DNA from: Rhodospirillaceae bacterium
GTDB lineage: Bacteria; Pseudomonadota; Alphaproteobacteria; MPNO01; UBA2964
Length of the DNA: 36,007 nucleotides
NCBI GenBank assembly: GCA_018660305.1
Contig: JABJKO010000050.1
Span: 1-36,007, forward strand
Direction of reading: 5' to 3'
Below the pieces are notes generated by a model. The model was given only the letters and a program-made list of their open reading frames with translations. It did no database searches and had not been told where the DNA came from. The translations under genes and the position numbers were made by a program. Shown in pieces: positions 9,779 through 12,862 of this stretch (the first letter of the stretch is position 1; each line of letters begins with the position of its first letter).

Positions 9779-10659
9779 TGGCGCTCCACATCAAATCCAT
9801 CGGGATCATCGGCGCCGGCCAGATGGGTGCCGGCATCGCGCAGGTCTGCGCCCAGAACGGCTATCAGGTCCAGCTCGCTGATATCGATGACGGGGTGCTT
9901 GCCAAGGCCATCGACGGCATGCGCGGCCGCATGGATCGGCAGGTGCAGCGCGACCGGATGACCCAGGACGTGCTGGATCAGACCCTTGCCAATATCACCA
10001 CCGGCACCGACTACAAGATCTTCGCCGATTGCGATCTGGTCATCGAAGCGGCAACCGAGAACGAGGCGATCAAGCAGGCGATTTTCGAGAAGCTGACGCC
10101 CTGCCTGCGGCAAGATGCGCTGGTCGCAAGCAATACGTCATCCATCTCCATCACCCGGCTGGCGGCTGCGACCGACAGGCCGGAACGGTTCATGGGCGTG
10201 CATTTCATGAACCCGGTGCCGGTGATGAAGCTGGTGGAGCTTATCCGCGGCATCGCCACCGACGATGCGACCTATGAGGCCATCCTCGCCGTGGCCGCGA
10301 AGCTCGGCAAGACCGCTGTCACGTCGGAGGATTTCCCCGCCTTCATCGTCAACCGCATCCTGCTGCCCATGATCAATGAGGCGGTCTATACGCTGCATGA
10401 AAGCGTCGCCTCGGTCACCGATATCGACCAGGCCATGAAACTCGGCGCCAATCACCCCATGGGGCCGCTGGAGCTGGCCGATTTCATCGGTCTGGATACC
10501 TGCCTGTCGATCATGCAGGTGCTGCATGAAGGGCTCTCCGACAGCAAGTACCGCCCCTGCCCGCTGCTCGCCAAATATGTCGAGGCCGGCTGGCTGGGCC
10601 GCAAATCGGGTCGCGGGTTCTACGATTATTCGGGTGAGACGCCGGTACCAACGCGCTGA
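9778..10659 (+). CDS. 3-hydroxybutyryl-CoA dehydrogenase (3-hydroxyacyl-CoA dehydrogenase family)
   Basis: A 293-residue NAD-dependent enzyme oxidising 3-hydroxyacyl-CoA to 3-ketoacyl-CoA (or the reverse in butyrate/PHB-type metabolism). The dinucleotide loop GIIGAGQMGAG is at residues 9-19, with a following acidic D36-region (QLADID). The catalytic histidine is H142 in MGVHFMNPVPVMKLVE, and the C-terminal domain has NRILLPMINEA and HPMGPLELADFIGLD. Length fits single-domain HBD (about 290). A one-base overlap puts it in the etfBA operon, so its electrons and substrates are shared with acyl-CoA oxidation. Confidence 0.95.
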   Translation: MALHIKSIGIIGAGQMGAGIAQVCAQNGYQVQLADIDDGVLAKAIDGMRGRMDRQVQRDRMTQDVLDQTLANITTGTDYKIFADCDLVIEAATENEAIKQAIFEKLTPCLRQDALVASNTSSISITRLAAATDRPERFMGVHFMNPVPVMKLVELIRGIATDDATYEAILAVAAKLGKTAVTSEDFPAFIVNRILLPMINEAVYTLHESVASVTDIDQAMKLGANHPMGPLELADFIGLDTCLSIMQVLHEGLSDSKYRPCPLLAKYVEAGWLGRKSGRGFYDYSGETPVPTR

Positions 10660-10720
10660 GTAACAATTCTCATACTTGCGAATTATCCAGAATGAGGATG
10701 ACAAGTGGCCGGGGGAGATT

Positions 10721-11353
10721 ATGTTCGAAGCGGAATGGCAAAAGCTAAAATTCGATTTCGATAATCTAAATTCAAATTTCGAAACTCATATTGATCGGCG
10801 CCCTAATGAACAAATGTGCCGTCTTCTAATCCTTGGCGAAGATCACCGGTACAATATTCATCCGGGCGTTGATCCCATCGCAATTTGTCGTGCGTTATGG
10901 CGGACCTATTTTTGTCGTCGCCCCGAAGGTGGGTCCACCATTGCCATGCAACTAGTTCGCACCATTTCCGGCCGATACGAAAAAACACCGACGAGAAAGA
11001 TTTTGGAGATTGTCCTCGCAGTCAGACTGACCAAGCACGTCGACCGAGAAAGATTGCCGTGCCTGTATTTGTGGGTAGCCTACTACGGGTGGAGAATGAA
11101 TAATTTTTTACAAGCTTGCGATAGGCTGAGCATTGATCCCAATTCATCTTCTTTGGAAGATGCCGCGCAGCTGGTCGCGAGATTGAAATATCCCGAGCCA
11201 CGCATTTCTAATCTTGAGCGTAAAAGAAAAATAGAAGTGCGATGTGCTTACCTCGCAAATCGTTATCGAAATAGAGGAAACCGCTTACGAACTGAATTGG
11301 CAGGAAGCGATGGAACCGTTCAAAGCACCGGCGCAACTGGTAAGATTAATTGA
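10721..11353 (+). CDS. Soluble GT51-like peptidoglycan transglycosylase-domain protein (accessory cassette)
   Basis: A 210-residue protein with the hallmarks of the GT51 (PBP-type) glycosyltransferase fold. Motif 1 is GEDHRYNIHPGVD with the general-base glutamate E40. Motif 2 is GGSTIAMQLVR (70-80). Motif 3 is TRKILEIVLAVRL, keeping K93 and the second glutamate E96. The LYLWVAYYG segment follows. GT51 enzymes polymerise lipid II outside the inner membrane and normally have an N-terminal anchor. Here there is no signal peptide, no membrane helix and no transpeptidase domain. The start at 10721 has GGGGGAG just upstream; a TTG at 10676 is possible. Base composition is markedly more AT-rich than the neighbours. 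Its 3' end overlaps the next gene by 44 bases. Substrate and location are unknown. Confidence 0.7.
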   Translation: MFEAEWQKLKFDFDNLNSNFETHIDRRPNEQMCRLLILGEDHRYNIHPGVDPIAICRALWRTYFCRRPEGGSTIAMQLVRTISGRYEKTPTRKILEIVLAVRLTKHVDRERLPCLYLWVAYYGWRMNNFLQACDRLSIDPNSSSLEDAAQLVARLKYPEPRISNLERKRKIEVRCAYLANRYRNRGNRLRTELAGSDGTVQSTGATGKIN

Positions 11354-11972
11354 ACACTATCCAGATGCACAGTTAATCACGGAAGTAGCACAAAGGGACG
11401 GGGAACCTGCTCGATATGCAATAGCACGACTTTGGCTCTCTGAAGGAATACCTTTTGCCTTCAAAGAGTGCCCCGCAATTTATGAGTCGGTTCGAACATG
11501 GCTCGCGGGACGGCTTGGCGTCGACGCAAAAGAAATTAGCCTTGCCGGCAGCGCTCGCTTGGGCACATCTCTATCGCCTAGTCAATTGGGCAAAGAATTT
11601 AATGAAAAATCGGATTTAGATTTTTTTATAGTGTCCAATGAGTTGTTTGAAAAGATTCGGAACGATTTCCAAACGTGGTCATTCGACTATGAAAGCGGGA
11701 AAATTGAACCAAAAAACGAACGCGAGGCGAAATTTTGGCGCGACAACAACTCTCGCGGACCAATGTTAATTCAACGCGGGTATTTGCATAATCAAATAGT
11801 TCCAAATCATAACAGGTACGAGACGGTAAAAAATATTAATCAATCTATGTGGTTGCTTACAGAGAAACTGAGAATTACTGAACTAGCACCTACGGTGAAA
11901 AAAGCGTCTATTGTTTGCTACAGTTCTTGGAGGGCTTGTGTACAGCGTATGGTATTGAACCTACGGAGCTAG
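11310..11972 (+). CDS. Nucleotidyltransferase-fold protein (pol-beta type), partner of the GT51-like gene
   Basis: A 220-residue protein with a nucleotidyltransferase core. The helix-turn GSARLGTSLSP has the GS pair at residues 80-81, followed by SDLDFFIV with two metal-binding aspartates, D102 and D104. The third acidic residue is not obvious. About 75 N-terminal residues and a C-terminal helical region (INQSMWLLTEKLRI) frame the core. The substrate is unknown: nucleotidylation of a protein, antibiotic or RNA, or second-messenger synthesis are all possible. ATG at 11310 has an AGGA site ahead; a GTG at 11244 is an alternative. It overlaps the GT51-like gene by 44 bases in another frame, so the two are translated from one message. 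It is AT-rich and foreign-looking like its partner. Confidence 0.6.
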   Translation: MEPFKAPAQLVRLIEHYPDAQLITEVAQRDGEPARYAIARLWLSEGIPFAFKECPAIYESVRTWLAGRLGVDAKEISLAGSARLGTSLSPSQLGKEFNEKSDLDFFIVSNELFEKIRNDFQTWSFDYESGKIEPKNEREAKFWRDNNSRGPMLIQRGYLHNQIVPNHNRYETVKNINQSMWLLTEKLRITELAPTVKKASIVCYSSWRACVQRMVLNLRS

Positions 11973-12012
11973 GCACCTTTATTTTGCTGTTCTGCGTTAA
12001 AATTGCCAGTAA

Positions 12013-12090
12013 AGGCCGCGCGACGCCGGCACGGAAGAGGAATTCATCGAGAATTTCGACCGCGCCCGCATCGGCTCCATCGAAGTTTAG
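12013..12090 (+). pseudogene. Possible C-terminal relic of a displaced gene
   Basis: In one frame, immediately after a stop, this reads RPRDAGTEEEFIENFDRARI then GSIEV and a stop. Acidic, charged and GC-rich, it looks like a native protein tail rather than cassette DNA. I cannot name the parent gene. The opposite strand is also open here, so the assignment is weak. Confidence 0.25.
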
Positions 12091-12126
12091 CGCTCCATCA
12101 AATTGAGTGTGCACTTTCAGCAACCA

Positions 12127-12244
12127 CCCACCTCCCCTGACCCCTCCCCCAATGGGCGGAGGGGAACGCGGTCGTCAAAACCGAGCAAATTCCCTCGACG
12201 CCCGTCATGAATTAGGGGGGCGGAGAGGGCTAGGGAGAGGTGGG
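12127..12244. repeat. Imperfect C-rich/G-rich inverted repeat (REP/MITE-like)
   Basis: A C-rich left arm (12127-12150, CCCACCTCCCCTGACCCCTC then CCCC) faces a G-rich right arm (12215-12244, containing GGCGGAGAGGGCTAGGGAGA then GGTGGG), separated by about 64 bases. The arms pair imperfectly. This is the look of dispersed palindromic repeats of proteobacterial chromosomes. It abuts the 3' end of the thioredoxin-like gene and marks the outer edge of the accessory region. Confidence 0.55.
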
Positions 12245-12283
12245 GGATGTTTCCGTCAAACACAAACTTGCCGTTAGAAATCC

Positions 12284-12862
12284 CTAACGTTGTTCACCCA
12301 GTTGAACGTAGTGATCGATCAGGGCCAGGGCTTCGGCGCTGTCCCATTCCGCGTGTCCGGCGAGACGGCCCAGTTCGTTTCCGTTGCGGTCAAGGAGGAT
12401 GGATGTGGGGAGACCCTTTATCCGCATGACCCGGGACACCGCAGCTTTTTCATCCACATAGATGGGCAGCCCCGCGAGACCGTGTTTCTTCAGGAACGGT
12501 TTGACCATGGGCCAGCCGCGCAAATCCTGGGACAGGGCGATCACCGTAAAATCAGATCCACCGCGCGCCTTTTGCAGACGCAGGAGCGATGGCATCTCGC
12601 GGATACAGGGTCCGCACCAGGTCGCCCAGAAATTGACCAGGGTGACTTTGCCGCTGAATTCCGTGAGCGGAACCGACCGGCCGCTCTCGGCCCGGACGGC
12701 AAGCGGCGGTGTTGGCGGCGCGCCGTCGGTTGGCGTAAAGTTCTGCATCCACCCCGTCAAAGGCGGTGAAGCGCTCTTTTCGCTTGATTTAGCGTCAAAA
12801 AACCACCAGATGGCGGCACCGGCTGCTATAACCAGCACGGCTATGGAAACATTTTTGATCAT
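12284..12862 (-). CDS. TlpA/ResA-type membrane-anchored thioredoxin-like protein
   Basis: A 192-residue periplasmic thiol-disulfide oxidoreductase tethered by an N-terminal helix (about residues 4-22, VSIAVLVIAAGAAIWWFF). The thioredoxin domain starts near residue 55 and has the active site VNFWATWCGPCIREMPSLL with cysteines C83 and C86, and a cis-proline loop MRIKGLPTSILLD. Such proteins reduce disulfides in apocytochrome c or CuA assembly; the precise client is unknown. It is divergent from argH across a 34-base gap, the arrangement usually seen in related alphaproteobacteria. Confidence 0.9.
   Translation of the reverse strand: MIKNVSIAVLVIAAGAAIWWFFDAKSSEKSASPPLTGWMQNFTPTDGAPPTPPLAVRAESGRSVPLTEFSGKVTLVNFWATWCGPCIREMPSLLRLQKARGGSDFTVIALSQDLRGWPMVKPFLKKHGLAGLPIYVDEKAAVSRVMRIKGLPTSILLDRNGNELGRLAGHAEWDSAEALALIDHYVQLGEQR

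Follow-up and report, generated by a model that had tools for sequence, protein, structure and literature searches.

We describe here two small overlapping genes on a 36,007-nucleotide stretch of DNA from Rhodospirillaceae bacterium (GenBank assembly GCA_018660305.1, contig JABJKO010000050.1, forward strand; "the window" is that whole stretch), which belong to a two-gene module that is widespread but patchy and comes with two types of partner. One gene encodes a short GT51, a protein with the peptidoglycan-glycosyltransferase fold, and the other a nucleotidyltransferase (NTase); elsewhere, GT51s of the same clade are accompanied by a transmembrane (TM) beta-barrel protein. The pairs occur across phyla and on mobile elements, keep their catalytic residues, and sit in defence-rich or prophage neighbourhoods. 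Within the limits of our searches the module is undescribed, and defence is the best-supported guess at what it might do. How could a peptidoglycan polymerase serve in such a conflict, and what would hold it in check? The window's copy is made up as follows.

10721..11353, plus strand: short GT51 (peptidoglycan-glycosyltransferase fold), the proposed effector, from Pfam PF00912, catalytic residues and hydropathy
11310..11972, plus strand: Pol-beta-superfamily-like nucleotidyltransferase, the proposed controller or sensor, from its GS...SDLD core and an AlphaFold 2 (AF2) model
11310..11353, plus strand: 44-base overlap of the two genes, from open reading frame (ORF) coordinates; an overlap is also seen in relatives
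10660..12283, no strand: low-GC insert with a 3-hydroxyacyl-CoA-dehydrogenase-like gene on one side and a thioredoxin/TlpA-like gene on the other (by eye), from the GC profile and ORFs

The two genes travel as a pair

We call a short GT51 with an NTase type I, and a short GT51 with a TM/beta-barrel protein type II. Two peptide patterns drawn from the NTase alignment, run against 84,980 species at one genome per species, gave 32 confirmed NTase loci, a lower bound because the scan used those two patterns; IMG/VR added two loci, and the 72,556 records of PLSDB one. A same-type GT51 lies directly upstream of the NTase in 34 of the 35, and in the last (L021) the contig gives just 209 bases upstream. 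By record title, mostly of metagenome-assembled genomes, the pair is spread rarely and patchily over nine phyla: Pseudomonadota, Campylobacterota, Nitrospirota, Acidobacteriota, Gemmatimonadota, Poribacteria, Latescibacterota, Binatota and Thermodesulfobacteriota. The first-pass annotation of the window had proposed that the two genes form a cassette, an idea that homologues occurring mostly apart would have spoken against. They are not mostly apart, whichever gene one starts from: none of 14 newly found short GT51s lacks a partner gene, which is an NTase in six (two of them broken) and a TM beta-barrel protein in eight. This reverse test covered 26 places, in which known loci were identified as seeds or by exactly matching lengths and scores, and in some genomes 7-12 first-look candidates were scored; GT51s below E 1e-30 were left out, so other partner types may exist.

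The genes overlap in 26 of the 32 loci measured (L011, L019 and L021 left out), by exactly 14 bases in 19 of the 32. In Vibrio mytili (L011:9440-10654) they form a single in-frame ORF of 404 amino acids, although this fusion, present in one assembly, could instead be a sequencing indel. GT51 distances correlate with NTase distances (r=0.79 over 38 pairs, which count one locus twice, L029 being L038; 0 of 2000 permutations were as high), and still do without the three most distant pairs (r=0.78); shared host history may contribute. Each fold is common by itself, and one might imagine a plain accessory gene of wall synthesis that happens to adjoin an NTase, an explanation that the adjacency counts, the overlap, the fusion and the correlated distances contradict and to which we give hardly any credence. 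A housekeeping role for the GT51 is rejected as well: other GT51 matches, in frames of at least 482 amino acids, occur in 15 of 18 genomes, the short GT51s form a separate clade, and the pair itself is rare and patchy.

Several searches returned little. Distant NTases, used against plasmids, found again the Aliarcobacter plasmid described below and nothing else; neither the window NTase nor that of L035 matched phage records; one distant DNA query pair found no type I copy in 5426 E. coli genomes; and a protein search with the Gilliamella NTase found its own database copy alone.

Three loci have a damaged or altered NTase beside a mostly intact GT51 frame: it is broken beside a transposase-like ORF in L080, frameshifted in L084, and altered at its 3' end in L027, which lies near the end of its contig. 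Intact relatives exist, and some of the breaks may be assembly errors. L080 and L027 make a strict antitoxin slightly less likely and weakly favour a role as trigger or sensor. They bear on the idea of a classical toxin–antitoxin system, in which the NTase would nucleotidylate and silence a GT51 toxin, as MNT does HEPN, for the sake of plasmid or island maintenance and not of antiviral sensing. HEPN-MNT, a small toxin–antitoxin pair with a minimal Pol-beta NTase, is a precedent, and two small overlapping genes, a minimal NTase and a patchy spread are what one would expect; yet GT51s are tolerated beside a broken or altered NTase, plasmid copies are rare (one in 72,556 records), and in type II a membrane barrel protein takes the NTase's place. 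We consider this explanation unlikely, but deserving of a hearing.

A second partner on one GT51 clade

The type II loci (L046-L051, L058-L061, L078 and L086) were found in prophages, on a plasmid and in further genomes within the orders and classes searched; two of them (L049 and L051) share a single genome, G521. In a tree with 23 penicillin-binding proteins (PBPs) and 5 MtgA, the 47 short GT51s all fall into one separate clade (support 100/100), and the ten barrel-partnered GT51s form one group (99/92), both over 135 columns. When L033 is in the tree, the barrel branch is nested among NTase-paired GT51s (95/84 with L031 and L035) and thus suggests a single exchange of partner; without L033, the data do not reject a tree in which the NTase-paired GT51s all form a single clade (p-AU 0.44), which weakens that reading. 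The trees, of about 135 columns, are without L019, L069, L070 and L096 (motif not matched) and L021, L025, L041, L084, L059 and L061, and the PBP/MtgA tree and p-AU test leave out 13 redundant PBPs.

Natural fold matches of the barrel partner include the CBASS receptor Cap15; a PDB sequence search gave no credible match for it, and an E. coli barrel protein matched nothing among phage records. Type II GT51s have an N-terminal hydrophobic segment with a mixed charge pattern, which in the E. coli protein fits a periplasmic domain. Just downstream of one type II pair (L078:2493-2982) is what looks by eye like a CopG/RelE-like toxin–antitoxin pair.

The proteins and their active sites

The first-pass annotation read GT51 motifs in the first gene and a GS...DxD NTase core in the second, and both readings hold. 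The window GT51 matches PF00912 with E 6.4e-24 and 84.8 bits, well over the cut-off of 27. Motifs I to III of the family are ED..R...H.G.D, G[GA]ST...Q and RK..E, and E40, D41, R43, H47, D51, S72, T73, Q77, R80, R92 and E96 are invariant in 155 of 155 alignment rows; here and for the NTase, the rows include the window proteins' own database copies and near-copies. E40, D41, H47, D51, S72, T73, Q77, R92 and E96 also recur in all ten rows of a mixed type I/II alignment. The protein is not MtgA, since it scores 37.7 bits against the 182.65 cut-off of TIGR02070 and falls in a separate clade. An unnamed phage family, phrog_33002, is a weak match to the GT51. No N-terminal TM segment is present in the window GT51 (top 19-residue hydropathy 0.43 in residues 1-80), and 36 of 38 type I GT51s, unlike the canonical enzymes, have no TM-like segment in their first 80 residues; we therefore infer that the type I protein is cytoplasmic, and its GT51 family membership points to lipid II as the probable substrate.

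The NTase falls into no named family above curated cut-off in the profile libraries scanned (Pfam, NCBIfam, PADLOC of 2023 and PHROGs). Its matches are a sub-threshold one to PF01909 (E 0.051), a weak one to the PADLOC "Cyclase" model (E 7.9e-4) and a weak link to phrog_32008, an unnamed phage family (E 3.9e-8); given the two weak PHROGs matches, prophage relatives of both proteins may be commoner than those found here. A PDB sequence search gave no credible match. The AF2 model (pLDDT 88.6) has weak fold matches, the best in Foldseek at E 0.22, and NTases are 26 of 30 among the matches listed. The core is nearly invariant (G80, D102 and D104 in 156 of 156 rows, S81 in 155), the family shares an N-terminal WLSEGIP segment, and position 160 is Asp in 146 of 156 rows, possibly a third metal-binding carboxylate by analogy with Pol-beta NTases.

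That possible carboxylate, together with the weak CBASS cyclase match and the presence of Cap15 among the barrel's fold matches, speaks for a nucleotide signal: the NTase would make a messenger upon infection, which would activate the GT51 in type I and be received by the Cap15-like barrel in type II. We think this improbable.

Neighbourhoods

Nearness to known defence genes had been suggested as a check on such a module, and the type I neighbours are rich in matches to defence models. Three batches of proteins encoded no more than 6 kb from type I pairs matched 130 PADLOC models (135 proteins), 162 (123) and 107 (37) at E up to 1e-8, whereas the neighbours of housekeeping PBPs matched 7 (146 proteins). 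We use this contrast alone, because the counts are of models and not genes and do not resolve the matched protein. The scan took in 295 of 302 type I neighbours (seven ORFs of L030 and L031 were omitted) and, for the control, 146 of 147 proteins (one long one omitted) from 6.5-15.5 kb regions in 15 of the 18 searched genomes; the control too matched mad2, mad3 and HNH models, once each. On an Aliarcobacter plasmid island (L001, NZ_MK715471.1 120700-141356) the pair is surrounded by genes for HNH, AAA ATPase, DUF4365, phospholipase-D-like, TIR and DUF4917 proteins. Six further type II loci gave 54 PADLOC models from 63 neighbours, most of those listed being type II methyltransferase models matched by one protein each.

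With one DNA query, 5 of 5426 complete E. coli genomes proved to carry type II, and the three copies viewed are all in prophages. One lies in a P2-like prophage, flanked by tail-fibre assembly and tail sheath genes, at a site other than the cos-proximal hotspot of Rousset et al. as given in the parts of PMC9122126 consulted; the other two lie in lambda-like prophages, with antiterminator Q on one side and holin on the other. A further type II copy is carried by one E. coli plasmid, about 6 kb from site-specific integrases. Around the two IMG/VR type I loci, a joint scan of the neighbouring proteins turned up tail and tape-measure proteins among others.

Could the module then be envelope or lysis-timing cargo, its GT51 thickening or patching the wall and in this way protecting prophage hosts from superinfection or keeping their lysis on time? 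The places between Q and holin, the hydrophobic segment of type II GT51s and the tail proteins near the IMG/VR loci would suit such a role. But 36 of 38 type I GT51s have no export signal, their NTase partner needs cytosolic nucleotides, and the proteins around type I pairs, taken together, match many defence models, all of which makes this a doubtful alternative. A role in defence or conflict fits the defence-rich neighbourhood and the prophage positions.

The cassette in its contig

Re-derived coordinates agree with the first-pass annotation on two genes that overlap by 44 bases in different frames. The GT51 ORF runs from ATG 10721 to its stop at 11353 (210 amino acids, plus strand) and the NTase ORF, on the same strand, from ATG 11310 to its stop at 11972 (220 amino acids). 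The program's ORF list starts them at TTG 10676 and GTG 11244; we take the NTase from ATG 11310 because relatives share that start (M1 invariant in 22 of 22 alignment rows). The overlap suggests translational coupling.

The cassette is AT-rich against its neighbours, as had been noticed: its GC of 45.0% is the lowest of any 1252-base stretch in the window (steps of 100; mean 60.3%, standard deviation 3.3%). The GT51 gene has 46.1% GC (43.6% at third codon positions, GC3) and the NTase gene 44.0% (GC3 41.6%), against 62.1% and 63.8% (GC3 82.7% and 78.6%) for the flanking genes compared, which are 3-hydroxyacyl-CoA-dehydrogenase-like and argH-like, housekeeping-like genes named by eye from their translations. 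No direct repeats of at least 14 bases occur across 10560-12420, and a search of the window for edge repeats and terminators turned up none that convinced. Just past the cassette, 11973-12283 holds a GC-rich frame that ends near 12088 and resembles the remnant of a gene, as well as a G/C-rich repeat-like segment, both seen by eye; the region may be an insertion edge of the cassette.

A proposed mechanism

We favour, with somewhat less than even confidence, a horizontally moving two-gene conflict module that works by abortive infection, with the GT51 as an effector acting on lipid-linked peptidoglycan precursor and the NTase or barrel as its exchangeable controller. The GT51 is constant and has a complete active site, its partner is variable and regulator-like, and the NTase is replaced in the sister branch; it is for these reasons that we assign the parts as we do. 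Substrate, site of action, direction of control and defence itself are all inferred. Having no membrane anchor, the type I GT51 would polymerise the lipid-linked precursor, probably on the cytoplasmic side of the membrane. The NTase, product of the overlapping gene, would restrain or trigger it, most simply by nucleotidylating it or by forming with it a complex that changes upon phage infection. Once released, the GT51 would tie up lipid II and carrier lipid, envelope growth would stop, and phage production would end. In the sister branch the NTase would have been swapped for a TM/beta-barrel protein resembling a nucleotide receptor. Zeta toxins are a precedent for striking wall precursors from inside the cell.

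One caveat concerns the window's own copy. The window NTase has His at position 160 and Val at 202 (Arg in 153 of 156 rows), each found in 2 of 156 rows with the window's own database copy included; since they replace conserved residues, the enzyme may be weakened, and the window's copy is perhaps not fully working.

A bolder and more tentative version, to which we give about a third of our belief, is that the module represents a new anti-phage class: a short GT51 peptidoglycan polymerase, spread across phyla and prophages, silenced by an exchangeable nucleotide-linked controller (NTase or Cap15-like barrel) until infection leads to misplaced polymerisation of lipid II and starves the envelope. 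The sources searched gave no described immune or toxin system with a peptidoglycan polymerase among its working parts. If the module does defend, wall synthesis by a misplaced polymerase would join the known routes to aborting an infection, and a GT51 clade that takes either an NTase or a Cap15-like barrel would offer a direct test of the swapping of nucleotide-linked controllers. The natural E. coli type II copies make the module testable in laboratory strains.

Comparison with known systems

The first-pass annotation knew of no named system with both genes, and we found none in the family libraries or the literature searched. Neither pair is described in the titles and abstract beginnings of the open-licence PMC papers listed by the searches, whose lists were capped at 6-30 papers; subscription papers, preprints and supplements were outside this scope, and a description elsewhere is possible. 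Terms were also searched in main text of PMC12839542, PMC9122126, PMC12657218, PMC13092281 and PMC5512222 and in the first 300,000 characters of PMC3482391.

The module resembles CBASS, a CD-NTase plus effector, in the NTase of type I, the TM/beta-barrel of type II, which has Cap15 among its fold matches, and the defence neighbourhood. It differs in its minimal NTase, with just the weak PADLOC cyclase match, in having no Cap gene, and in an effector that would be a glycan polymerase; of the two window genes tested, the GT51 matches no PADLOC model at E up to 1 and so is no known Cap effector. Membership in HEPN-MNT is rejected, since the partner is PF00912 and not HEPN; there too one finds a small pair with a minimal Pol-beta NTase, but here a GT51 replaces the HEPN RNase and the NTase family has the WLSEGIP segment. 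HEPN-MNT architectures are mentioned in the parts of PMC12839542 covered.

Panoptes, as far as PMC12657218 was covered, is likewise a two-gene module (mCpol plus a 2TM-beta effector), and type II shares with it a membrane beta-barrel. Ours has a GT51 and no mCpol: scans of Pfam, PADLOC and NCBIfam (E up to 1) gave no mCpol match for either protein of the window, and "transglycosylase" and "glycosyltransferase" occur 0 times in the main text of that paper. PARIS (AriA/AriB) is, in the parts of PMC9122126 consulted, a two-gene cassette with a fusion form too and a home on mobile elements, and our module is like it in all three respects, with a single fusion, although the proteins are unrelated.

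The closest relatives by fold are the ordinary wall enzymes. The GT51 of the pair shares its fold family and catalytic residues with MtgA and with the glycosyltransferase domain of PBP1a/1b/1c, and it differs from them in being short (about 200 amino acids), in having no transpeptidase, in forming its own clade, in lacking, in the window's copy, the N-terminal membrane anchor, and in having a small partner gene dedicated to it.
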